From: Morinoia aosen
Taxonomy: Eukaryota; Arthropoda; Malacostraca; Amphipoda; Talitridae
Assembly: GCA_030386875.1 (NCBI GenBank)
Contig: CM059564.1
Coordinates: forward strand, 63,407,936 to 63,471,935
DNA length: 64,000 bases
Reading direction: 5' to 3'
Below are positions 32,146-57,374 of this stretch, piece by piece (position 1 is the first letter of the stretch; every line of letters begins with the position of its first letter). Made by a program: the position numbers and the translations under genes. Under the pieces are notes generated by a model. It did not search any database and had not been told where the DNA came from. It worked only from the letters and a program-made list of their open reading frames with translations.

Positions 32146-33746
32146 CCGTGAGGCGGAGAAGGAAGCGCGTGCGTGAAGCAGCGTTGGGCCGGGCCGCAGA
32201 TTACAAGGCAGCAGGTGCCATGATTGCCACCCTCACTTGATGAACGTCGATGACTAATACTATACGGCCGCATGACCAATTCAGGTGACTAATGCTCCTG
32301 TTGCTGCTGCTCTTTCTGCTGCTGTAGGTGGCTCAGCCCTGCTGGTGCTGCAGCGCCTTTAATTTCTGCAGTTTGATCGAGTGCAGAAATTCGTGCAGCC
32401 TCTGAGGGTGCAGTTTGTTCCGATGGCTATTGTGCTTCGATACCGTAGGATGCTTGGCTTATTGTGAGGATAGCATAAATTAATCATCACTTGTAGGATA
32501 AGCTTAAAAGTTACAGTACATGTCTCTGTATTTGAGTTTATTCGAGCTCGTGTTACGCTAAATTTATCAAATTAGTGAATACATGCGATGTTAGTGTAGG
32601 AAAATGATCTGTGATAATTCACTCGAGTTCCCGAATACAAGAGTTCTTGAGGCTATCAGCCCACTAATTAACGCAGTGCAAGCAATATGATCAAAACCCC
32701 AAAGGTGCTGCTTACAGCCCCTGAAAATTAGAATTAGTGAGCCTGATCTCTGTGAGTCTTTTCATTAAATTCCACAGCAAAATATATTCCGGTAATATCG
32801 GAAGTCCTTTACATGAAATTCATTAAAGCGAAATTTGTTTCTCTGTGTAAAGAATAAATTCGAAGTAAAATTTCTTGAGGTAATAAAATAATCGTTAACC
32901 TTCAAACCCTTGGATTTAAACAAGGTCCCGTAATTTCGCGATCTACGAGCAGCGATCTGACCGAACTGACTTCTATCAGGAACCTGAACAATGCGACTAT
33001 TATTATCGTGAAATAATTCGAAACATGCCATTTCAAACATTATAGTGACTTGTGTCTCCCGTCTTTTAGCTGGCTAAGTTTGATTTTGCTCTTAAACTGC
33101 ACACGCATGAATACACGATCAAATGAACATCTACTAAAATAGTACATTGGAGACCGAATTTGTGCTTCCCAATAACATATGTGAACATATTACATATTAT
33201 CATCTATGTAGACAGAGACCAGTTATAGTTCAAAATTTTTCTAGGATTTACTACTATTTTTCATCCTCAGTGAACTGCTCAGAGTTAGAATTGATTTGGT
33301 TAGGTAATTGGTGAGGACAAGAGGAAACCATGCTGTTCCAAGTGGTTTTTAATTGAATGATTACATTTTTAAGAGAGTTACCCTGAAGCAACGCTAAAAC
33401 TATGAACCACTTTTATTATCCTCATGTGCTATTTAGAGCATCCGATTTGCTAAAATTTCCAGTGTAAAGATTACCGTCCGTCTCGGTGAGTAGGGACATC
33501 CAGAAACCCGATGCCAAAATTTTATAGAGGAAGCTAGCAGCTCGCGTACCGCGCGCATGGAACTAAATCTGTCACTTTTCACAATTTGTTTCACGTTAAA
33601 ATCAGAGACGATAGGTTCAGGTTCATGTTAGGTTAAATTCAAATAAGATGGGTTTGGTTGGATAAGTTAGGTTTTGGCTCATTTAATTTGAAAAATTAGG
33701 ATGGATATAGGCCGGTAATATTAAATAAGTAATGATAACTATTATT
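32146..33746. other. Unassigned DNA
   Basis: No gene recognised. The stretch immediately left of the Penelope-like element is ordinary AT-rich DNA ending in its target-site copy. Confidence 0.5.
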
Positions 33747-33760
33747 ATGATCATTAATAT

Positions 33761-34545
33761 GATTAAATTAGGTTGGAGCACTCTTGACAGTTTTAAAACA
33801 AAAAAGATAGCAAAGACTCTGAATTTGAAGACCTTGACTCTGAATTATTTTAAGACCTTACTCGAAATGGCTGTGCTGAATTCAGTGTTCATGTTCCGAG
33901 GTAGATTTTATCGGCAGACAGAAGGTTTAGGAATGGGTCTCCCATTAGGACCGACGTTCGCAAATATCTTTATGTGTCATCATGAGGTGAACTGGTTATC
34001 TGAGTGTCCGCTAGACTTTAAGCCAATTTTTTACAGGAGGTATGTTGACGACACTTTTGTTATATTCCGTGAGGAGTGTCATGCAAGTAAATTCTTGGAG
34101 TACATCAATTCCAAACACGCCAATTTAAAATTTACGATGGAATGTGAAACTAAACATAAGCTTGCTTTTCTGGACTGTTCCGTTGAAAAACAAAATCAAA
34201 GGTTCATAACTTCTGTTTATAGGAAAAATACCTTTACGGGTTTGGGCACTAGCTTTCTTAGTTTTTGTTCATTTAGGTTTAAACTCAATAGCATTAAAAC
34301 CTTGTTGCATCGCGCTTTTCATATAAGTTCAACGTACCACAATATGCATAATGAATTTAATTTCCTACAAACCTTTTTCAGTAACAACGGTTTTCCGAAT
34401 AATCTAGTCTCTAAAATTATAAGGCTATTTTTAGACAAAAAATATATGCCGACCTACTCTGAGACAACTGTAAAGAAAAAGAAATTCTACTGTAACTTGT
34501 TTTTTATGGTGCAAAGTCCGAGAAGCTCGCCAGTGAAGTTTCAAA
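33761..34545 (+). pseudogene. Penelope-like reverse transcriptase, C-terminal part
   Basis: The frame enters from flanking DNA and becomes element-derived after the target site. Motifs in order: QTEGLGMGLPLGPTFANIF (RT motif B region), YRRYVDDTFVIF with the catalytic Asp pair (motif C), LAFLDCSVEK (motif D/E region), and VYRKNTFTG, which is typical of Penelope-like elements. Motif A and the fingers domain are absent because of the truncation. A -1-type frame change near a T-run at about 34499-34506 separates this from the endonuclease frame; it could be mutation or a homopolymer error. The copy cannot encode a complete RT. Confidence 0.92.
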
Positions 34546-34972
34546 GCTGGTGGAGAAATTTTACAATTGCTTAGATTTTATTCCAATATTGACAAACAAG
34601 CGTAGTATAGGATCATTTTTTAGATTTAAAGACCGTCTTCCTGCTGAACTGTGCTCTCGCTTAATCTACAAGTATTGTTGCACGCTGTGCGGGTCTAGCT
34701 ACATGGGTTGCACCCAGCGTAGTTTTAGAACAAGATTTTTTGAGCACGTTGGTAGGAGCTCCAGAACGGGTAGAGTTTTAGCAAAGCCATCATTTTCAGC
34801 CATTAGGGATCACGCAGAGCAGTGTAGTGTAATAGTAAGCAAATCTGATTTTTCAATTTTAAATTTCTGTGCAAATAAAAACGACCTACATATACTAGAA
34901 TCTCTTTACATTAAAGAATTAAAGCCAGCTCTAAATTCAATGTTATCATCATTTCAGTTAGAAATAGCCTGA
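34546..34972 (+). pseudogene. Penelope-like GIY-YIG endonuclease domain
   Basis: This continues the element protein after the frameshift. RSIGSFFRFKDRLP is the usual linker motif, followed by CTLCGSSYMGCTQRSFRTRF and a conserved EH pair. That is the GIY-YIG nuclease core of canonical Penelope-like elements, with the second tripeptide as YMG rather than YIG. The C-terminal block SFSAIRDHAEQC, then LHILESLYIKELKPALN, matches the family's end. The stop is TGA at 34970-34972. The domain nicks target DNA during retrotransposition. Confidence 0.92.
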
Positions 34973-41400: not shown

Positions 41401-41627
41401 CGAGGCTTTCTTCACTTCATAGTGATATCATAATGACATTTTTTATTTCTAAACATCATATCGTCGGCCGTACACTTCGAATTATTTCTCTAGTTAGTTA
41501 CATCAGCTAATCGCTCAAATTCACGCAAATGTCCATGTAGACAGCCAGCGTTCGAGCCCAATTTGCAATTCACTGTCGTACATCTACGTCAGCCCATGCA
41601 TTGCGTCAACAACCAGAGGTCCACGTA

Positions 41628-41990
41628 TTCTAGATTAAATAAGATGTTAGCTTGAGCTTCCCTAACCTCAACAAAGGCGTTCCAAAGAGAAGAAGGAAGA
41701 AGGCACAATTTAGTGTGAAGTTAAGGGAATGCAGAATTTATGCACATGGTGCATAGATAAGTAAGTTGAGGAAGAAGTTCATGAAACAAGCAAAAAGTTG
41801 TAGGAGAAAGTATTAGGTGCTGAAAGAGACAGGACAGCAGTGAAACAAAAAATGATTGCCCTTTGCACAACAAAAACGTTTTATTTCAACAAAAAGATGA
41901 CCTTCCCAACTCTCAGCTCGAGACCTCACATTTTCCCTCTGTTAGTGCCGAATCCCAGAGATACAATAGTTGTATACCCCTAAGGAGACT
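41628..41990 (-). mobile_element. SINE-like element, copy B
   Basis: 363 bp, minus orientation: the head (reverse complement of gatacaatagttgtata near 41970) is at the right and the gcttccctaacc end at the left. It is bounded by a short candidate target duplication, cacgta, at 41622-41627 and 41991-41996. Length and structure match the better-defined copies D and E. Confidence 0.78.
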
Positions 41991-41996
41991 CACGTA

Positions 41997-43353
41997 GACT
42001 TCTGTGTCTATTGCAAATGATATTGTTGAGACTATTTTCCTCTGCCTTTCGCAAAGACGATGTACCGCTAAATTCTCTTGGTAGAATACAATCAACGGCC
42101 ATGTCCCTATAGTCTGCTCGATACGATACACCACTATTCAGTAAACCGGTCTACCATGAACCGATCGAATTTCATAACGTACTCCGCAAGCGTGCACACT
42201 TTGGGACGAGTAGCGTTATTGAGTTGTAAAAAATGTACTATCGGCTATTTTCCACCATGCCTAAAATCGACCCGTCCATAAAAAATGAACCACTCATTTG
42301 AGGTTTCATTAGCAGGTCCTGTGGTAGTCGCAGCTAGTGAGCATCCCTGAGTGGCTGTGCGTGTAGTGAGGGTCGTTTTAAGGTATTCGCGCCATTAAGG
42401 TGAGCATTTTTAGCAATTTTTGCACTCTTTTGGCCTGGGAAATTGGGGCAATTTGGTGGTGCCGGGCCCCAATCCAACGCAATGGCCACTCCGTTCAGCT
42501 TAAGCAAATTGTCGAAGCGGCGGCGGATTTGCGCCGTTCGCTTATGAAACGACAGCCAATGACAAAATTTGCGCCTTCTCTGCCCCGTTCCATTTTTTTT
42601 CTTTTTTGTGCAAGATGACAAAATTTGCTTTCGTAGGGCAGCAAATGTGCGTGCGCCTTGAAACCACACACAGTCCCATTTGCGCGGCATTGACCAGCGG
42701 TAAAAGGAAATAAGCAATATATTTTCCTACGAATTTGGTGTTATTTGAGTGTATCGAACAGATTGTGTTAAATTTTGAAATGTTTTGAAAACATTTTAAC
42801 ATGACGGTATACAAGTATTTCCGCCATTGCGCTCTTGATGTTGTTGTTTTCATCACTGAGTGATGAACTTTGCGACGAGATCTGCGATGTATTGTCCATT
42901 TTAATGTCATTAAGCGACGATTAACTGATGTAAGACTTTCTCTTTCATCCCTTCATGATTTTCCGTTTCGCTTTTCATGTTTTCTCCCTCATTACCGTGA
43001 AAAACTTTTACAAATTTACGAGTTGTAACCCATGAATTCTCGAAGTTAAACTTTGCTCAGGGTTTTCTTATGGATTTCTTTATTCATCTTGTTTTAATTT
43101 TTTTGAACCAACATTTAATTTTTACTTCAGTTTAAAGATGTAAAAATTTACGCCAATGAAAAGAGTTAGCTAAAACTGTCAATTCTTTTGTATAGGGAAA
43201 GGTTTACCGAAATCTTGGAAAAAATCAAGAAAATTTGAAAAAATATTTTGCTTGATTCAATAACGGTAAAATGAAAGCGACTGAATTATGTACTGGTATT
43301 TAGTTTTTTGAGCATATTATACATTATTAATTTCGTCTCATAATAACTGACTT
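41997..43353. other. Unassigned DNA upstream of the giant gene
   Basis: No firm gene. 42360-42600 is GC-rich. An in-frame TGA at 43351-43353 is the last stop before the giant gene's frame; from there the frame stays open to 52218. Confidence 0.45.
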
Positions 43354-43743
43354 TTTGTACTGAAATCGTCTATTTAATACAAGTTTGAACTTTTGTTTGA
43401 CCTACCTACGTCTGAATAAAGGCTCTTTATAGTGCTGGAAAAGAGATTAATTCAATTGATGCAACGACTGATCTAAAATTTATTTCAGAAAAATCTACTC
43501 GTCCTTTCAAAATTTGAGTATTTCGTTCAGCCTGTATTCTGGATACCCCAGTACCATCCTTCGTAGTAGAAAAATAGCGAATCCGTAACCAGCTGTGGAC
43601 TGTGGTTCTTCATCCCAACTTTGAAATCTTTTTCACGAATACAGAAGGAAGGAGCGTCCCAAGACGGGCTTTTTTAAGAATCCAAGTTTTCTCCGAATTT
43701 GAAAACCTGCGCCCAATATTCCGATCAATAATTCTTGTTGCAG

Positions 43744-44040
43744 GGTAAAAATTGGCCTCCGATACCTCTCGACTGGTGGAAAAGTATTCCCCCAGTCTCC
43801 TTGAGCCTCATGAGTTGCTCAAGAGATGAGGAGTGCCGGGGAGAAGTCCTTTGGGGCAGACATCACTACGTCAAGAAGACTCATAGACGTCCCTAAAGTT
43901 CGAAATCTTCAAAGAAAATCCAGAAACCAACAATGGATGGCAGAGGAGCATCTATAATCACCAACACTCAGACAAGATCCCCTGAATAAAACGGAGGTTG
44001 CGGGTGCGTGCGTCTCGAATTTCAACTCAGTTGTAGGTCG
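43744..44040 (+). other. Probable 5' coding segment of the giant gene, frame unresolved
   Basis: A good 3' splice-like sequence (attcttgttgcag, ending 43743) precedes this stretch. Immediately after it, the most protein-like reading is frame 3 (DTSRLVEKYSPSLLEPHELL), then from about 43820 frame 2 (ADITTSRRLIDVPKVRNLQ, then RNQQWMAEEHL with one TAA), before frame 1 takes over near 44040. A 23-nt GT...AG segment (starting gtgcgtctcg, ending caactcag) near 44010 would join frame 2 to frame 1 exactly. So small introns, indels or sequencing errors may lie here, and the true N-terminus is uncertain. Confidence 0.45.
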
Positions 44041-47000
44041 GAGTCAAATGAGGCCCTCAGGTCATTACCTCCGCTGGGAAAGAAAAAAGAAACCTGCGAT
44101 TTTCAAAAATGTCGACGTCGTTGTGCTGATAAGCTTAATGACGGCAGTGACGAGGAAGACTTGCTGCGGAGGTAAAAGTAATTATTGGATGAGAACGCTA
44201 ACTTTCAAAAGTAGTTCTTGTAGAGCCGTCGTCTAGCAGCGAGCCGGGAAAAAGTACGCTAAGCGTTAGAAAAGAAACGCGTAAATAGTTCAAAGTAAAG
44301 TAGTCGATAGAATGAATCCAAGCGTTAAATCTTTCTGAAACGACGTCCTATGCTTTTCTAAACGTCCCCAAACGATGATTACAATTACCAAAAAAAACTG
44401 TCTGAATTGGAACAGTTTTATGAAGACATAATCTATCGCAAAGACGCCATGATCTAAGATATGGAGGCAGACTTGAGAGAAAAGAACAATGAACTGAGGA
44501 AAGCACGTCTACAATACTACTAACTTCGTCAACGAGTTCCATCCCAGTCTTAGGACAGATCTCGTAAAAGAAGATCTGCAGAAGATGTTAGCTACTCAAA
44601 CAGATTTGGATCTGAGATGAGAAACGTTAGATTCCACCATTAAAATTAGGATTATAATGGCTTCAATGGCACGTATAAGCGGCAAAAACAGGGAATAATA
44701 AACTCTGACTTTATTCGGAGGTTGAAGGAAGACCACGATCAACTTTTGCATGACAGGAACTCGCTGCGAGAGCTAGTAAGGCAACTGGAAGAGAGTCTAG
44801 TGGAAGCCAAGCAATAACTTAGCAAGGTTTAGAGCTAAGCCCTCAGTCATCAAACCAAGGACGAGGAGAAGTAAAAAATACAGAATCTCGAAAGTGCAAT
44901 CCGGGAGTAAGATAAAAAAATTGATGAGTTACGCGATTAAAAAAGTAATGCTAATTAAATAACTTCGTCCAAAACTGACGGTGCGAGAACAACAGGAAAA
45001 AATGAAGGTAAACATGAGAACGATTTCTTGAAGCTTTAACTGGAGAACTTGGGTTGGTGCGTCAGAGAATGTGTGGATATGCTGAGGAGTGCTGGGCAGG
45101 AAATTGGAACCGATGTTCAATACCCAAAAAATGACTCACTTGAAAACGAAGATCATTTTTCTGAGAGTATCGATCAGAATTCTGAGTTGCGTGGAAATAA
45201 GAGCATGCGTGAAGGTATGAGATGTGATGGGCTTGTCCTGATGAAACTCCTGTAAAATTACATCAAGAACTCGAAACAACGCTGGAAAAAATTCAGAGCA
45301 GCCAGCGATCGCGATGCGAAGGAAAAGGAGGAACAACTGAACGAGAAAAATCATGAACTTGAAGAACTCCTGAAACAAGAAAAGGACAATCGGTATAGAA
45401 AAACAGAACAGGACCTAGAAAATGTGGAGTTGAAAGAGAAGTTGAGAAACAGAAACGATGTTATCAGAAAATAAGAGTAATAAATAGAGAAACAAGAATA
45501 GTTAATTTTCGATATGGAGCAATAGCTAGTTGAAATGGTGAGAGAGAAGCGATTCAGTGAAGAAGAATCAAAACAAGCTAACGCATAGATCAAGAAAGCT
45601 GAAGAAGAAACACAAGTACTTTCATAAAAACTCAAAGAAATGGAGAGAGAATAGAGAAGTGTCTAGTCTAACTTGGAGGAGTAATTTCAATAACTGGAAC
45701 GTGTAAGTGAAGACGAATTGGCGCGATTAAGAACTTAGCTTGAAAATGCTGAAGACTAAGTGAAAGGACTTCGGTAAGAACTTGAAGCCACATACGTTGT
45801 GCATCAGAAGTAAGTGAGCGAAATGCAGAGAGAACAATATGACAGCGAAGATTAACTAGAGAGGGTGAAAAATTTATTGAATTAAAAGGAAAGAGAATTA
45901 GCCGAACACAAAATAGAGATAAAAAGTTTAAAGGATTAGCGGAAAGATTTGAAAAATATGGAAAGGGAGAAATTTGCAGCAGAGAAGGAATTGAGCAAAG
46001 TAAAAATTTAATTAGCAAATTCTGCAGCAGAAGTTGATTCTCTTTCATCTTTGCTAAATCAGTTCGAAGACGATCAGAAAACTCTTCATGAACAGATTAC
46101 GAAGTAGAGAGGAGATAATGAGAAATTGGGCAGAGACCTTCGGAAGGCGATGCAAGAAAACGCTGATCTTCAGGAGTAGCTTGATGTAGCGTTAGGGTCC
46201 ATAGAAACTTCTGGCGCAGAACGCAGCAAACTCAAAAATAAAATCTCCACTTTGGAATCATAATACTCTTAAGATAAAACCAATATTCGTAAACTCGAAG
46301 AGTAAGTAAGCGAATAGTTAATTTTGTTAAATCAAGCAAGGTCATAAAATTAATAACTGAACGATTAATACTCTGCATTGCATCGCCTCCATAGTGAATG
46401 TGAGGCATAAAAAGCAAGATAGACTGCTGATATTAACGGTCTACAGAGGCAACTGGTACGGCGAGAAGAGCACAAAGAAAAATTAGATGGAAGATTGAAA
46501 GATCTAACGGATACTGGAGAAGAAGTTTAAAAACTTTAGAAAGCTCTCAATACTACTCGAGATAAACTAGATACCAAAACTGAAGAAAGTAAATCTATGC
46601 AAAAACAACTTAAAAATTTATAAAGTGATTTTGACGATATGGAGTACACACGCAGGACACAGCAAGCAGAAATGTTATCTCAGTTAAATGAATTAGAAAA
46701 TAAAAATCGACGACTGACTGATGAGCGGAATTCACTGAAGCGTCAGGTGGAAGAATTAGAGTTACTGAGGTCGTCTACCGTAGACAAAAGTCTGTACTAG
46801 CAGCTGACGAAAGATTTTGACATGCTGTATGCAGATAGAGAATCATTATAGCGCCGCCTAGCAGACGAAGTGCGGTTGGCAACAGCTTCGCGGAAGGAAA
46901 AGGAGCAACTTGATGAGCTTAAGTAGGATTATGATGCGTTGAAAGACGAGCGAGATTCTCTGTAGTAACGCCTGGAGGAAGAAAAATCAAAACACCATTT

Positions 47001-50000
47001 AGTTGTAGAAAGAAGCCTGTATGACTAGCTAAAGGAAAGGAATGTTGGTTTAGAGGCAGAACGGGATTCTCTGCTACGACGCTTGGATGAAATTTCTGAT
47101 ACACCGTAACCTGCAGTTGTCCCGTTAGACGAGTACAATGCATTGAAAAGAGAACTTGATGACGTAGAAGCTGATAGAGATAATTTGAAGCGTAGCATAC
47201 AATCGCTAATGAATGCCCCGAAGCCTGCAGTTGTAGAACTGGACGAGTTCAACGCACTAAAAAGAGCTTATGATACTCTAGTAGCTGATAGAGATGAATT
47301 GAAACGTCGCATGAGCTCTATATTGGATGCCCCAAAACCTGAAGTTGTCGAAATAGACGAGTTCAACGCTTTAAAAAGAGCGTATGATGCACTAAAAGCA
47401 GACAGAGATAAATTGAAACGTCACCTGAGCTCAGTGCTGGATGCCCCAAAACCTGAAGTTGTGGAAATGGACGAGTTCAACGCTTTAAAAAGAGCGTATG
47501 ATGCACTAGAAGCAGACAGAGATAAATTGAAACGTCACCTGAGCTCTGTGCTGGATGCCCCAAAATCTGGAGTTGTGGAAATGGACGAGTTCAACGCTTT
47601 AAAAAGAGCGTATGATGCACTCGAAGCTGACAGAGATAAATTGAAACGTCACCTGAGCTCAGTGCTGGATGCCCCAAAACCTGAAGTTGTGGAAATGGAC
47701 GAGTTCAACGCTTTAAAAAGAGCGTATGATGCACTAGAAGATGACAGAGATAAATTGAAACGTCACCTGAGCTCTGTGCTGGATGCCCCAAAACCTGAAG
47801 TTGTGGAAATGGACGAGTTCAACGCTTTAAAAAGAGCGTATGATGCACTAGAAGCAGACAGAGATAAATTGAAACGTCACCTGAGCTCTGTGCTGGATGC
47901 CCCAAAATCTGAAGTTGTGGAAATGGACGAGTTCAACGCTTTAAAAAGAGCGTATGATGCACTAGAAGCTGACAGAGATAAATTGAAACGTCACCTGAGC
48001 TCAGTGCTGGATGCCCCAAAACCTGAAGTTGTGGAAATGGACGAGTTCAACGCTTTAAAAAGAGCGTATGATGCACTAGAAGATGACAGAGATAAATTGA
48101 AACGTCACCTGAGCTCAGTGCTGGATGCCCCAAAATCTGAAGTTGTGGAAATGGACGAGTTCAACGCTTTAAAAAGAGCGTATGATGCACTAGAAGCTGA
48201 CAGAGATAAATTGAAACGTCACCTGAGCTCAGTGCTGGATGCCCCAAAACCTGAAGTTGTGGAAATGGACGAGTTCAACGCTTTAAAAAGAGCGTATGAT
48301 GCACTAGAAGATGACAGAGATAAATTGAAACGTCACCTGAGCTCAGTGCTGGATGCCTCAAAACCTGAAGTTGAAGAAATGGACGAGTTCAACGCATTGA
48401 AAAATGAATATGATGCAGTAGCAGCTGACAGAGACGAGCTGAAACGTCGTTTGAACTCTATTCTGGATGCCCCAAAACGTTCGATTAGGAAAAAAGACCA
48501 TTTTAATGAATCAGAAAGAAACTATGTTGAAACAGAAACTGATAGGAATGCTTTGAAACGTAGCTTAGAAACTGTTGTGGATACTTCACAGCGTTCTGTT
48601 GTGAACGAGGATCTCTTGGATTCGGGATACCCAAACCACAGTTCATTGGGAGAAGAAAAAGAAGACGATCATGAAATTCGATAGACTTCCGCGATTGACG
48701 CTGCAGTAACATCTGCGGGAGATAAATCTAAATTCAATCAACAATAATACAATACTACTTCAGAAGCAACTGACAAGGATACACTGGAACGGCAGCAGAA
48801 TTTCGCACAAAAAGCTTTGAAGCACTCTGCTGAGGAGAGAGATTTATTTGTTTAGCTAAAAAGCGACGATTCGCTTGTAGCGGAACCAGCTTATCTCAAG
48901 AGAATATAAAAAGATCTAAGGGATTTTTCGAAAAATTTAGCAGATGATGACGACCATCTTTATGATCTCAAGGAGGATTATGAATTAAAATCAAGTAGTG
49001 AATTTCTTGGAGGCCACTCTAGAGGTAAACTGGAGGCTCCAAGTTCTCCTGCATAGGGATAGGGCAAAAAGCGAGAAAAGGCAAAATAGAAATCCTTTGA
49101 ACTTCAACAAAAAAATAAGTCAAATGAATAACAAGAAGCGTAAGTCGTAGATGAAATTTCTCGCTCATTTTAAGAAGACGATAGTGAGATAGGAAGCTAG
49201 AAAGAGCATGTTAAGCCGGAGACCACCTCAGAAAATTAAGTGCTAAAGAAACAAATTCAAAGTTTGGCCAGAGACAACGAGACGTTGAAAGATAATTTAC
49301 GGGAAATCGAAAGAAGGAACCGCTAAAATGGTTCTTAATTTAACCAATTCATCAAATATTTGATCAATTGGTTGTAGAAACTCTACAAGAACTGTAACTT
49401 ATCCGATGAAAACACTGAAACTCGTCTGCAAAACTCGACTGAAGGTGATGCAAGCGGAGGTATAAAGCCAACGGTCGCTTACATGACTTCATTTGAGGAA
49501 ATTGACTAGCATGTCATAACACAGGAACAAAGATAACAGCTAAAAACTTAATTTGAAAATGTGGAAAACCACCATCGGGATTTGCACGACTAAGTAGACA
49601 TGCTTAGAAAACACCAAACCCAAACGGCTCAAGGCGAAACGGACTTACCCTAACGAGGATTTTAACGTCCCACGAGTTCGAAAAATGCCGACACAGAAGA
49701 TCAATAATTTTAGAGGAGCGTCCAAAAATTGTCGAGAGAAAAGCTCGCCCTGGAGGAGGAGAACGAGTCGATGAAATTGAAGTTTAATGACGTTATTGGT
49801 TAACTGCGGCGACTTTAGGATGATCACGACCTCATGATGCAAAACCAGCATGAATTGAAGCAACTGATACTGCAGTACGAGCGATAATTGGACTAAGCTG
49901 CTGAAAAACTTAGACTATCATAGTTATCATCTGAAAGAACAAATGAAGTTGAATAAATATTAACGTACGAAATCAAGCGATTGAAAGACCAAGCGACAGA

Positions 50001-52218
50001 TGCTGAGAAATATCTTCAAGAAATGTCAAAATTGCACGAAAACCAAATGTAAAATCTCGCCCGTGAAAACGGTCGGCTCGTAAACGGTTTGTAGGAGTAA
50101 ATTAGCTCTATACAGTAAGAACGGAAACTGCTACAGTCTTCAATGCAAGAAATTTAAAAGCCTTCGGATGCGCTAATGGAGGATTATTATAAACTCCAAT
50201 TTAGTTTGGAAAAAAGTAAGGCAGAATTAGCGGTTGTCAAAGAGTAACTAGAAAACAAAGAAGGAACTGAAAAAATGTTGAGAGGCCAGCTGCAACGATT
50301 GACGGAATAACTTAAAATAAAAGAAGATTCTGTGAAAAAAATATCTGAAATGGGTGAGTAGTAAAGGAACAAATTAGCAAGAGAAAATGAGTAGGAAGTA
50401 AATAAGATGCAAAGAGAAATTAAACTTTTAGAACAAGATAAATAAAAACTAAATTTTCAAGTTTAAGAAATGAAAACTAATGTAAACGAGCTAGAGGATG
50501 CTAACTAAAAGCTTTAACTTAAACCCGAAGAATCTTTGAAAAAATATTAAGAGTTGGAACGGACTCTTGATGAGACGAAGGAAGAACTAAAACAAGCTCT
50601 ACTGGACAAAAACACATTGTCCGCCCAAGCCCAAGATCTCCAGAAATAGATTAAGGAAGTCGAGACACAGGCGGAGAGACAAATCAACAGTGTCTAAGAA
50701 AAGTTAGAAGACGAAATAAAACAATTACAAAGCAGAATTTAAAAACTCGAACGTGAGAAGAATTCGCTGGAAAAATAGAACAGTGACCAAAGAAAAGAAC
50801 TGGAAGATTAGCTAGAGGCCAATCTAAAATTGAAAGAAACTTTTAAAGAGAAGATAGGGGAATATGAATCTAAGTAATAAAAAGAAAATGAGGCGTCCCC
50901 CAGTAGGAAAATTCCTGTCTCCCAATCTCCTCCAAATGAAGATGAGCCGAATTATTTCGACGGACTTGACAGCTACGTCAAAGATTTAGAAGACCGACTG
51001 GGCGCAATTTCTTAGAAATACGAGTAGCTATTAAAAGAACACGAGCAGTGCCCATCCAACCCATCGGATGCAGAGGACAAAGAGGAGTACAGGCAAACCC
51101 TGAGTGACATTCAAAAGCAATTGAAGCTCACCGAGAAAAAATTGCAAGACAGAAATAACGAAATCGCTGCTTTGAAAGAATAGAAAAAATAAAGGAGGTT
51201 GCCGATTTAGCCTCGAATGAGGAAATTACAATTTTCGGATGAAAATGTAGGAACCACTGGCGTGCACCAACAGATTAGGCAGATAGATAACCCTTCGGTG
51301 AGGCACGACGAAATTCAAGAAAACTTTGATGAACTTTCTCGCCAGACAAATGATAAACCTTAGGTTTTTAATCGATGTCCGACCAGCTGCCAAGAAAATG
51401 TTGGTCATTACCACGAGAACCAAAAAGATCTTTGCCAAGATCCCATGTGTCCTTATCAGGGAGCATTTAGTTCTTGTCCTCACTGTCTGGAAAGTTAGCA
51501 TGAATGTTCTTTTGAACAGCAGAACAGTCTCTGCAGCTTATGGCCTTCATCCTAGAACTGTTGTGATTTATAAGTTCCATGTGATGCGACTCAAAATTTT
51601 TAAAATGAAAAGATCATCCACGAGCACCAACATTTAGAACGAACCGAGACCGACGACGACGAGTCTCCGACGCCTAAAAAGCCTTTCTCGATGTTCATAG
51701 TGCCACAAAATTGCGTCAACTTGTGGGGAGAAGCGCAAAAATAGACGTAAGCTGCTGATGTTGATTAGGCCTCGTAGAGTTTAGAGGACAACGTGGGGCA
51801 CCAAACTCAAATGTAAGAGTGTCTAAGAGACGAGTGTTCGCTGCGTTTTAGAAGCAGCGAAGACGGCAATTCTGCAAATGTTTGTGAAGACAGCGTTCGA
51901 GAATACGGTGTTATTCACGATTCCGGTAGCGGAACAGCTAATGAAGGAACTGAGGGCGAAAATGTTCCGCACTCCTATGAGGGCAGGGTTCAGTACGGCA
52001 ACGAGATAAGTTTCCATAGCGATGAGGTTATTTATGAAGTGCCTATAGACAAGATTCCTGGAGTAATTGACCCTAATTTGCTCTATGTTACGGAAAACAT
52101 GACCGAGGAGGAAAAACAGGCACTCTTTCTGAAATACTTTGAATCTGTTAAAGACAATATTCTTTCAGCCGTGATCATGTAGGCTCAGAACTACTCGGAA
52201 AATGGCTATGATGATTGA
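43933..52218 (+). CDS. Giant coiled-coil protein encoded with UAA/UAG as sense codons
   Basis: One frame is free of TGA from 43354 to a TGA at 52216-52218, about 2955 codons. By hand count it holds about 130 in-frame TAA/TAG codons from the ATG chosen here (43933, context aacaatgg), which gives 2761 aa; the true start is unresolved. TAR codons fall at polar positions of obvious coiled coil, for example DSL-TAG-TAA-RLEE and YD-TAG-LKERN, where Gln fits. CAA/CAG occur at similar frequency. Layout: charged, basic N-terminus (1-150); coiled coil (about 155-1050); thirteen 38-residue repeats (about 1058-1557); more coiled coil (to about 2470); a Cys/His-rich patch (about 2480-2560); an acidic tail ending NYSENGYDD. 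Composition is Glu/Lys/Leu/Arg/Gln-dominated with no membrane segment, suggesting a structural or scaffold protein. No named family is recognised. A local frame conflict exists at 45200-45300. Confidence 0.9.
47104..48600 (+). repeat. 114-b (38-residue) coding repeat array in the giant gene
   Basis: Thirteen units of 114 bp start at 47104, 47218, 47332 and so on to 48472, with a partial one after. Each encodes a four-heptad helix of about 28 residues (EFNALKRAYDALEADRDKLK, then RHLSSVLD) and a 10-residue proline-containing linker (APKPEVVEMD). The central nine are nearly identical in DNA, and variants alternate (EA/ED; KPE/KSE). The outer units are diverged, and similar helices recur upstream from about 46780. 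The central units contain no Gln codon of any type, so this stretch alone is open in the standard code. Confidence 0.95.
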
Positions 52219-53106: not shown

Positions 53107-53500
53107 GTGCCTGTAGCCTCTCACGGGGATACACTAGTTGTACCTGTGAGAACTAGCGCTCACAAGAGGAGGATGTGAGGGCCCGTAGTGGAGGTTAGAA
53201 AGCTTTACTTCTGTTAAATATTTAGAAGAGGTTTTGTTTGGTTACGCACCATTTACGCTTTACTGCTGTCCTGCTTTTCAGCAGCTACTACTACTACTAC
53301 TACCATCTTTACTTTTATCTTGTTTCATGAACTTCCTTCCTAACGTGTTGTTTTTATACACAGGGTGTGGGACATACCAAGTGCATAGGTACCTCGTTCT
53401 CTTAACTCTATACTTAATGGTGCCTTCATTCTTCTTCTCCTGGGAACATATTTGTTGTGATTAGGGAGGCTAGAACCAACTTATAATCTATAATCTTATG
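53107..53500 (+). mobile_element. SINE-like element, copy C
   Basis: Head gcctctcacggggatacactagttgt is at about 53115, the cttttatcttgtttcatgaac body near 53310, and the gattagggaggct end near 53460, followed by an AT-rich tail. The flanking 7-mers tatagtt (53100-53106 and 53501-53507) may be its target duplication. It includes a short (cta)n run at 53286-53302. Confidence 0.7.
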
Positions 53501-53507
53501 TATAGTT

Positions 53508-56527: not shown

Positions 56528-56885
56528 TATTATTATTATATAAGAAAGTTTTAGCCTCCCTTAACCACGACAAAGATGTTCCAAGAGAGGAAAGAGGAAG
56601 GCACCATTTAGTATGGAGTTGAGGGAACGCGGAATCTATGCACAAGGTGCACAGAAACAGTAAGCTAGGAAAGAAGTTCCTGAAACAAGAAAAAAGTTGA
56701 AGAAGAAAGTAGTAGGTGCTGAAAAACAGGAAAGCAGTGAACCGAAAAAAATGGTCCGTAACAAAACAAAAACCTATTTTATTACAACAAAAAGGAAGCC
56801 TACCTAACCTTTAGCTCGGGCCCTCACATGGTTCCCCTGGGAGTGCTAATTCCCATAGATACAATAGTTGTATCCCCCTAAGGGG
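56528..56885 (-). mobile_element. SINE-like element, copy D, with perfect 13-bp target duplication
   Basis: Best-defined member of the family. The 13-bp direct repeat agctcgagttact flanks it at 56515-56527 and 56886-56898, giving a 358-bp insert. In minus orientation the head is ctccccttagggggatacaa and the 3' end is ggctaaaac followed by a tata-ataataata tail at 56528-56540. A target duplication plus a simple-repeat tail is the signature of LINE-mobilised retroposition. It is nested in the piggyBac element and is therefore younger than it. Confidence 0.9.
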
Positions 56886-57374
56886 AGCTCGAGTTACTAT
56901 GCTAATTCCAAAAAGAATATACTCAGTTGAGCCGTGTTGCTCTCAAGCAACAAATAGAGTCCGGTAAGAATACGCTTAGTTGCGAAATGTTGCCCTCAGG
57001 CAACAAACAGAAATTAGGATCTGGAAATTTTATTTTCTGATCAAATCATTTCTAACTACCCACACATAGTCTTTAGAACAGTATATATTTACAGCATAAT
57101 TTATTTTCATACCTACTCCAAAAACAGTGAACAGCATGCAAAGAGAAACAACCGTTAGTTTGCAAATTACTTAGAGCACCACTGCAGCACAATCTGTTCC
57201 TTCTTGTGCACGTGCTCAACAGAATCTGGTTAGGTGGGCGTCTTGCAGCGGTAGTCTACATCCCAAGGTATTGGGGGAAATCTTATTTGTTTTGTTTCCT
57301 CAAATACTCTCTGAGATATTAAAGTTTTTTCGGTATGTTGCCTGAAAGCAACATTGTGCCATATAGGGTATTAA

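Follow-up and report, generated by a model that had tools for sequence, protein, structure and literature searches.

A giant TAR-rich reading frame in the amphipod Morinoia aosen and its possible decoding by glutamine tRNA-like genes

Can a gene with more than a hundred in-frame TAA and TAG codons (TAR; UAR in the RNA) be a working gene of an animal? The question is raised by a stretch of 64,000 nucleotides from the amphipod Morinoia aosen (hereafter the window; C9:63407936-63471935, in a genome of 1.99 Gb in 29 contigs), for which a preliminary description made from the letters alone had proposed a giant gene that uses TAA and TAG as sense codons and TGA as its only stop. We consider it likely that this gene belongs to the animal and that its UAA and UAG codons would be read as Gln by dedicated tRNAs, the recoding being restricted to a selected gene or genes. 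About the fuller proposal our opinion is evenly balanced: the animal would have two nuclear codes, of which the standard one would serve its genes in general and the other (UAR as Gln, UGA as stop) a group of genes in a certain tissue or stage, the latter code being implemented by tRNAs with UUA and CUA anticodons and by a second, UGA-preferring eRF1.

The giant frame and its predicted protein

The frame lies on the forward strand at positions 43351-52218 of the window and comprises 2955 codons, with 87 TAA and 53 TAG (140 TAR) inside. Its sole TGA is the terminal codon at 52216-52218, which confirms both the length and the ending announced in the preliminary description. The two other forward frames contain 88 and 162 TGA codons over the same interval, and mononucleotide shuffles (n = 300) gave a mean of 52 TGA per frame with a minimum of 34. 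Downstream of approximately codon 260, where the composition turns coding-like, there are 131 TAR (80 TAA and 51 TAG), 118 CAR (CAA or CAG) and no TGA, compared with the 24.8 TGA expected from the positional base composition. The probability of 2695 TGA-free codons at the TGA rate of the other two frames is about 2e-51. Low usage of TGN codons accounts for part of the TGA shortage, as these are scarce in the giant frame (26 in total, none of them TGA) and Trp and Cys are rare.

Over its initial 190-260 codons (from 43351 to about 44100) the open stretch is not coding-like, and the upstream extension at 43351..43932 (forward strand), which is Trp-rich and without purine skew, is probably non-coding. 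The true start is therefore unproven and may be either ATG 43933 or ATG 44350. ATG 43933 (ACAATGG) is the best candidate, as the first start codon whose context is good; from there the predicted gene would occupy 43933..52218 on the forward strand and encode 2761 amino acids (aa) with 132 TAR, in agreement with the earlier estimate of about 130. The alternative start at ATG 44350 would give 2622 aa with 123 TAR. Thus, the giant open frame proposed earlier is real, but its first part does not look like coding sequence. The gene has no intron, and there is no N in the window.

The sequence of the predicted protein suggests a giant coiled coil. Its Pfam matches are leucine-zipper- or coiled-coil-like only, namely HALZ, which at 55.6 bits exceeds the cut-off, and two weak matches. 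A sequence search of PDB gave no match, and no relative was found in the viral contigs searched, a collection from which records near the genome of the window were possibly excluded; no named family fits the protein well. At 47213..48478 on the forward strand, a 114-bp unit (38 aa) is repeated in tandem and in frame about 11 times with 93% matches, and the differences between the units favour synonymous sites (pN/pS, the ratio of nonsynonymous to synonymous differences, 0.30). According to the preliminary description, TAR codons occupy polar helix positions that neighbouring repeat units fill with Lys, Arg or Gln. TAR and CAR occur in similar numbers and have largely similar neighbouring residues over the frame. 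As a correction, the 38-residue tandem block (47213-48478) contains neither TAR nor CAR. A context classifier ranked Gln top among 12 residues for TAR in 41% of 200 resamplings; this classifier is weak, as in 100 trials each it assigned held-out CAR codons to Gln only 34 times and held-out Glu codons to Glu 16 times.

Stop-reading tRNA genes and a second eRF1-like gene

The check for tRNA-Gln genes with UUA and CUA anticodons suggested in the preliminary description yielded nine stop-reading tRNA-Gln-like genes, five with UUA and four with CUA, all located on contig C19, where seven lie at 16.095-16.115 Mb and the other two at 39.31-39.32 Mb. Together with the frame, these genes support the view that TAA and TAG are sense codons (Gln) and TGA the sole stop in the giant gene. 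The pattern used for the genome search is sensitive only to tRNAs near the Gln pattern: a first, narrow version gave 5 matches, all with anticodon TTG, and the wider version used afterwards gave 61, compared with 30 in the reversed control. Ordinary Gln anticodons were present in 36 of the 61 matches (35 exact and one with 2 mismatches) and UUA or CUA anticodons in nine (5 exact, 2 with one mismatch and 2 with two). The other 16, with three mismatches each, were mostly random-looking; among them, two alike on C25 resemble a decayed tRNA-Gln and one on C18 resembles the CTA anticodon arm. No stop-reading tRNA was matched in this search on C26 or C27, the contigs with cobiont-looking genes, and the pattern was unmatched in viral contigs and prokaryote genomes (again with records near the genome of the window possibly excluded). 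At C18:46983851-46984010 (L077), a 27-nt segment resembles the CTA tRNA anticodon arm at 93%, with no surrounding tRNA; this is perhaps a decayed copy.

All nine genes were called as tRNAs by ARAGORN, with anticodon tta (5) or cta (4; labelled Pyl from the anticodon), and the same program called tRNA-Gln in 7 of the 8 ordinary-anticodon matches inspected. With Rfam, the stop-reading tRNAs scored 66-73 bits and three ordinary Gln tRNAs 57-70 bits. In a comparison that covered five host tRNAs, identity to the host tRNA-Gln was 56-58 of 72-74 positions, whereas it was 41-46 of 74-75 for His, Trp and Arg; moreover, the last base is T, as in tRNA-Gln, in eight of the nine. The 72-nt bodies have a mean identity of 96% (36 pairs; minimum 92%), and the flanks have one of 35% (16-60%) over 25 nt upstream and 44% (28-76%) over 25 nt downstream. 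TTTT begins at base 4 or 5 downstream of every one of them. Conserved bodies beside mostly diverged flanks are the pattern expected from selection on working tRNA genes.

A search of the genome for eRF1 domains revealed exon pairs on C12 (Pelota-like by eye), an eRF1 exon on C6 with the canonical TASNIKS motif, and a long frame on C16. This C16 eRF1-like gene (L065, C16:35503301-35505200) has a long first exon of 333 codons from its ATG, with no TAR and a GC content at third codon positions (GC3) of 0.70. Its predicted product matches the eRF1 of entry 1dt9, which we take to be the human protein, with 263 bits over residues 3-330, and shares 24 of 56 residues with the host C6 exon. The idea that the gene is truncated was dropped, because the frame ends at a splice-donor-like site (AG/GTGAGA), and further exons probably follow. 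KSSNIKS replaces TASNIKS, IYDCGKSF (within RFIYDCGKSF) replaces LYLCDNKF, and RGGQ is kept; in the alignment with 1dt9, following the numbering of the literature, T58 has become Lys and L126 has become Asp, and Glu55 is kept. The C16 gene thus displays the altered TASNIKS and 122-131 region with intact GGQ that is a feature of UGA-only eRF1.

As far as excerpts of the relevant papers go, the UGA-only eRF1 of Paramecium has changes at Glu55 and Thr58 (PMC5681627), and residue L123 of yeast eRF1 (human L126) influences UGA specificity and correlates with codon use, Phe being usual at this position where UAR = Gln; replacing that residue by, for example, F, A, S or G makes the yeast eRF1 UGA-specific, and Asp is not among the replacements mentioned in these excerpts (PMC4482090). 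The C16 gene shares with the UGA-restricted eRF1 of ciliates that T58 and the YxCxxxF region are altered. It differs from the latter in that it accompanies a canonical eRF1 exon as a second copy, keeps Glu55 and has Asp at L126.

The general code of the host and the setting of the giant gene

The general nuclear code of the host looks standard. We tried 15 HSP70 loci and read the codons of 14 (L030, which had one TAG in the family search, was left out); several of these are near-identical duplicates, so that the effective sample is smaller. Each gene has 20-24 CAR within the first 600 codons, and internal TAR is absent from 13 of the 14, the remaining one (L017) having an internal TAG where its paralogues have Tyr and a TAA further on. 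The terminal EEVD is followed by TAA in 12 of the 14 genes and by TGA in one. UGA is thus not the only stop in this animal, and TAR does not serve as sense in these ordinary conserved genes. When 53 of 348 HSP70 candidates were scored as matches, three contained one TAR and two contained one TGA. In the tubulin family (90 of 90 candidates scored), 58 of 65 matches were stop-free, five had one TAR and two had TGA, all seven stop-containing matches being low-scoring or partial; 7 of the 65 were on a bacterial-looking contig. The eRF1 domain match on C6 includes one TAA, which we attribute to an extension of the match into an intron. Searches with EF-Tu (74 of 117 candidates scored), HSP70, eRF1 domains (11 of 11) and tubulin revealed no TAR-rich nuclear gene.

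In addition, the mitochondrial DNA (mtDNA) contigs C28 and C29 read well with the invertebrate mitochondrial code. ND5, ND4, ND4L and ND1 are on the minus strand and K-D-ATP8-ATP6-CO3 lies downstream of CO2, a gene order that we take to be an arthropod pattern. An anomuran decapod was considered as the host and rejected on comparison with published gene orders (PMC10848379, PMC12798672, PMC2442616). The arthropod-like mtDNA, the standard-code HSP70 genes and the TASNIKS motif of the C6 eRF1 all speak against an organism-wide code such as that of ciliates and hexamitids, which the preliminary description had implied. The recoding thus appears confined to a gene or genes of a standard-code animal, a more surprising situation than an organism-wide code.

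The giant open reading frame (ORF) lies in an 86-Mb contig, C9, whose sequence is unbroken across it. Copies of a dispersed repeat of the host, about 350 bp long, SINE-like (resembling short interspersed nuclear elements) and given here with no strand, flank the ORF 1.9 kb upstream (41627..41988) and 0.9 kb downstream (53117..53502), and a third copy is at 56535..56886. The upstream copy matches loci on other chromosomes with 68-85% identity (L014 on C3, L041 on C25, L043 on C8 and L044 on C15). Further upstream, at 33729..34571 on the forward strand, there is a reverse transcriptase fragment of a dispersed element (RVT_1, E 6.7e-8; Penelope-like by eye), and the segment 34000-35157 of the window has at least 44 matches of 95-98% on other chromosomes, which identifies this element as host DNA. 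The GC content of the ORF is 39.8% compared with 39.0 and 37.0% in the flanks, and both its GC and its CpG are close to the host values.

A whole-genome DNA search detected one intact copy of the giant gene, that on C9, and two decayed fragments, one on C22 (about 212 bp, 74%) and one on C14 (94 bp, 78%); a search with the last 325 residues of the protein also found the single intact copy on C9. Comparison of 37 codons of the C22 fragment in frame (two stretches) showed 2 TAG kept, one TAA changed to CAA, two TAA changed to TAT and one Lys codon changed to TAA. Although they offer little sequence, the decayed fragments suggest a long residence of the gene family in the genome, and the family seems to be old in this host. 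A scan of 103 kb including the window for further TAR genes gave, among the stretches listed, shorter TGA-free ones: 974, 930 and 605 codons that correspond to a 28-bp tandem array, 512, 490 and 452 codons overlapping a 34-bp array, and others of 592, 503, 483, 468 and 442 codons. Near the window, at L048:127-2680, a 28-bp unit repeated about 91 times gives long TGA-free frames on the minus strand.

Mechanism, competing explanations and other sequences in the assembly

Our calculations indicated that 131 TAR would each need to be decoded with about 99.5% efficiency for half of the ribosomes to finish; at 99% per codon 27% would finish, and at 95% only 0.1%. This implies that ordinary readthrough is insufficient and that a near-complete loss of UAR termination is required. 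Since ordinary genes end in TAA, such a loss is unlikely as the general state of the animal, and a restriction to a tissue or stage is the likeliest arrangement. We envisage that the UUA and CUA tRNAs would be charged with Gln and that their activity would be confined to a certain cell type or stage, in which they would prevail over release at UAR. Synthesis of the giant coiled-coil protein would then end at UGA, and the divergent C16 eRF1 could possibly supply UGA-preferring termination in that setting. What gene-restricted decoding predicts for the genome is found there, namely a long TAR-rich, TGA-free frame with a Gln-like frequency of TAR, and cognate tRNA genes for both UAA (5 UUA) and UAG (4 CUA).

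The main rival, serious even though we regard it as unlikely, is that the ORF, and possibly also the tRNAs and the eRF1-like gene, represent DNA of a ciliate or another UAR=Gln organism, brought in by a recent horizontal insertion that was dead on arrival or by chimeric assembly. Suppressor tRNAs, a UGA-only eRF1 and TAR genes would be the equipment of a UAR=Gln ciliate, the giant gene is intronless, and the assembly does contain, at C26:20.50 Mb (L058, C26:20498401-20503000), a mitochondrial CO1 that by eye is of ciliate type, in which there is a long insertion and TGA stands for Trp. However, the flanks of the ORF are not foreign, with host repeats on either side in an unbroken contig, and this explanation would need three unlinked foreign loci on three large contigs. 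The four family searches, in which candidates were partly scored, revealed no TAR-rich nuclear gene, and the GC and CpG of the ORF resemble those of the host. The GC3 of the C16 frame and its lack of TAR, the decayed relatives that suggest long residence, and the tRNA bodies kept within mostly diverged flanks also argue against a protist source.

As the link between the giant gene and the tRNAs is only putative, the latter might serve another purpose (e.g., regulated readthrough) and the gene be unrelated to them. This appears quite improbable, because tRNAs of the UUA and of the CUA form are present, in line with the mix of TAA and TAG in the gene, and because the frame could not long stay free of TGA and frameshifts without TAR being read. 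A change of the entire nuclear code to UAR=Gln, or an ambiguous code with context-dependent termination as in Condylostoma, would explain the suppressor tRNAs for both codons and the TAR-rich gene. We judge it highly improbable, given the CAR-rich and TAA-terminated HSP70 genes (some of them near-identical duplicates), the stop-free majority of the tubulin-family matches and the canonical C6 eRF1 exon; an organism-wide UAR=Gln code was rejected on the HSP70 genes. The least credible possibility, in favour of which we saw no evidence, is that the frame is a pseudogene or a chance open frame, is the shadow of an antisense gene or has its TAR edited in the RNA. The absence of TGA where 25-52 would be expected, the unbroken frame of more than 8 kb and 24 intact CGA codons led us to reject a chance frame or pseudogene on frame statistics, the longest standard-code antisense stretch among those listed in the region is 142 codons, and we know of no animal U-to-C editing on such a scale.

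Several observations weigh against the preferred reading, that of a gene of the animal decoded by its own dedicated tRNAs. A ciliate cobiont was probably sequenced together with the animal, and hence UAR=Gln DNA was probably in the sample. Taken by itself, sequence context assigns Gln to TAR only weakly. The giant gene is the single intact TAR gene detected, and no systematic search for others was made; three of the 53 HSP70 matches hold one TAR, and only L017, at the Tyr site, was examined. Two tRNA pairs share their flanks (L068/L069, 86% over 162 nt; L071/L072, 83% over 144 nt), which implies that some copies are recent and the ages of duplication mixed, and L071 may be decaying, as it is altered at both ends (A1, G73). 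The C16 eRF1-like gene has Asp at the human L126 site, where ciliates with UAR=Gln usually have Phe, and both its codon preference and its action with the TAR gene are putative. Host repeats were not found in the 2.5 kb read around the C19 tRNAs or in the 2.9 kb read at the C16 gene. Host origin at these loci therefore rests on the contigs, on the GC content of the C19 locus (37.6%) and on the resemblance of the tRNAs to host tRNA-Gln.

To our knowledge, stop codons have not been described as reassigned in the nuclear genome of any animal. The parts of the open-licence literature that were accessible, mainly work on protists, phages and ordinary readthrough, mentioned no animal stop-codon reassignment or arthropod suppressor tRNAs, which is not proof of absence. 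The comparisons below likewise draw on excerpts of the cited papers. UAR=Gln nuclear codes (NCBI table 6) are used by ciliates, hexamitin diplomonads, some ulvophytes and oxymonads (PMC5304391), with tRNA-Gln cognate to both UAA and UAG (PMC4967479). The giant gene is like those of table 6 organisms in having UAA and UAG as sense, UGA as stop and tRNA-Gln for UAR. Unlike them, its host is an animal whose other examined genes are standard, and it is the only gene found with sense TAR. In the late stage of infection, code-switching phages (genetic code 15, crAss-like) decode TAG as Gln, for which suppressor tRNAs are predicted (PMC9523058); they share with the proposed animal system a recoded subset of genes, suppressor tRNAs and a standard-code cell. 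In the animal, however, the gene, the tRNAs and the altered eRF1 are on its own chromosomes, and both UAA and UAG would be recoded. The context-dependent codes of Condylostoma and Parduczia likewise give stop codons two meanings in one genome (PMC4967479), but there the recoded codons occur even in essential genes, whereas the HSP70 genes of the animal lack them. If our proposal is true, two meanings of UAA and UAG can be both tolerated and regulated within a cell, the ambiguous-intermediate route of code evolution becomes directly testable, and such genes escape the standard annotation of animal genomes.

Other sequences of the assembly deserve mention. Bacterial-looking genes of the EF-Tu, HSP70, CO1 and tubulin/FtsZ families occur at C27:55-72 Mb and on C26 near 20-21 Mb, and several bacterial cobionts are probably represented on these contigs. 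C29 is 62.9 kb, far longer than a single mitochondrial genome, and its beginning (L056, C29:1-10000) is animal mtDNA with a large tandem-repeat block ahead of ND2; C28 contains CO1 twice. Both contigs are probably concatemers. The CO1 at C22:9485994-9487145, with 9 TGA and 1 TAA inside, is probably a nuclear copy of mtDNA. HSP70 clusters are doubled with near-identical scores at C3:7.0-7.1 and 11.6-11.9 Mb and at C4:94.5 and 95.4 Mb, which perhaps reflects segmental or haplotype duplications.

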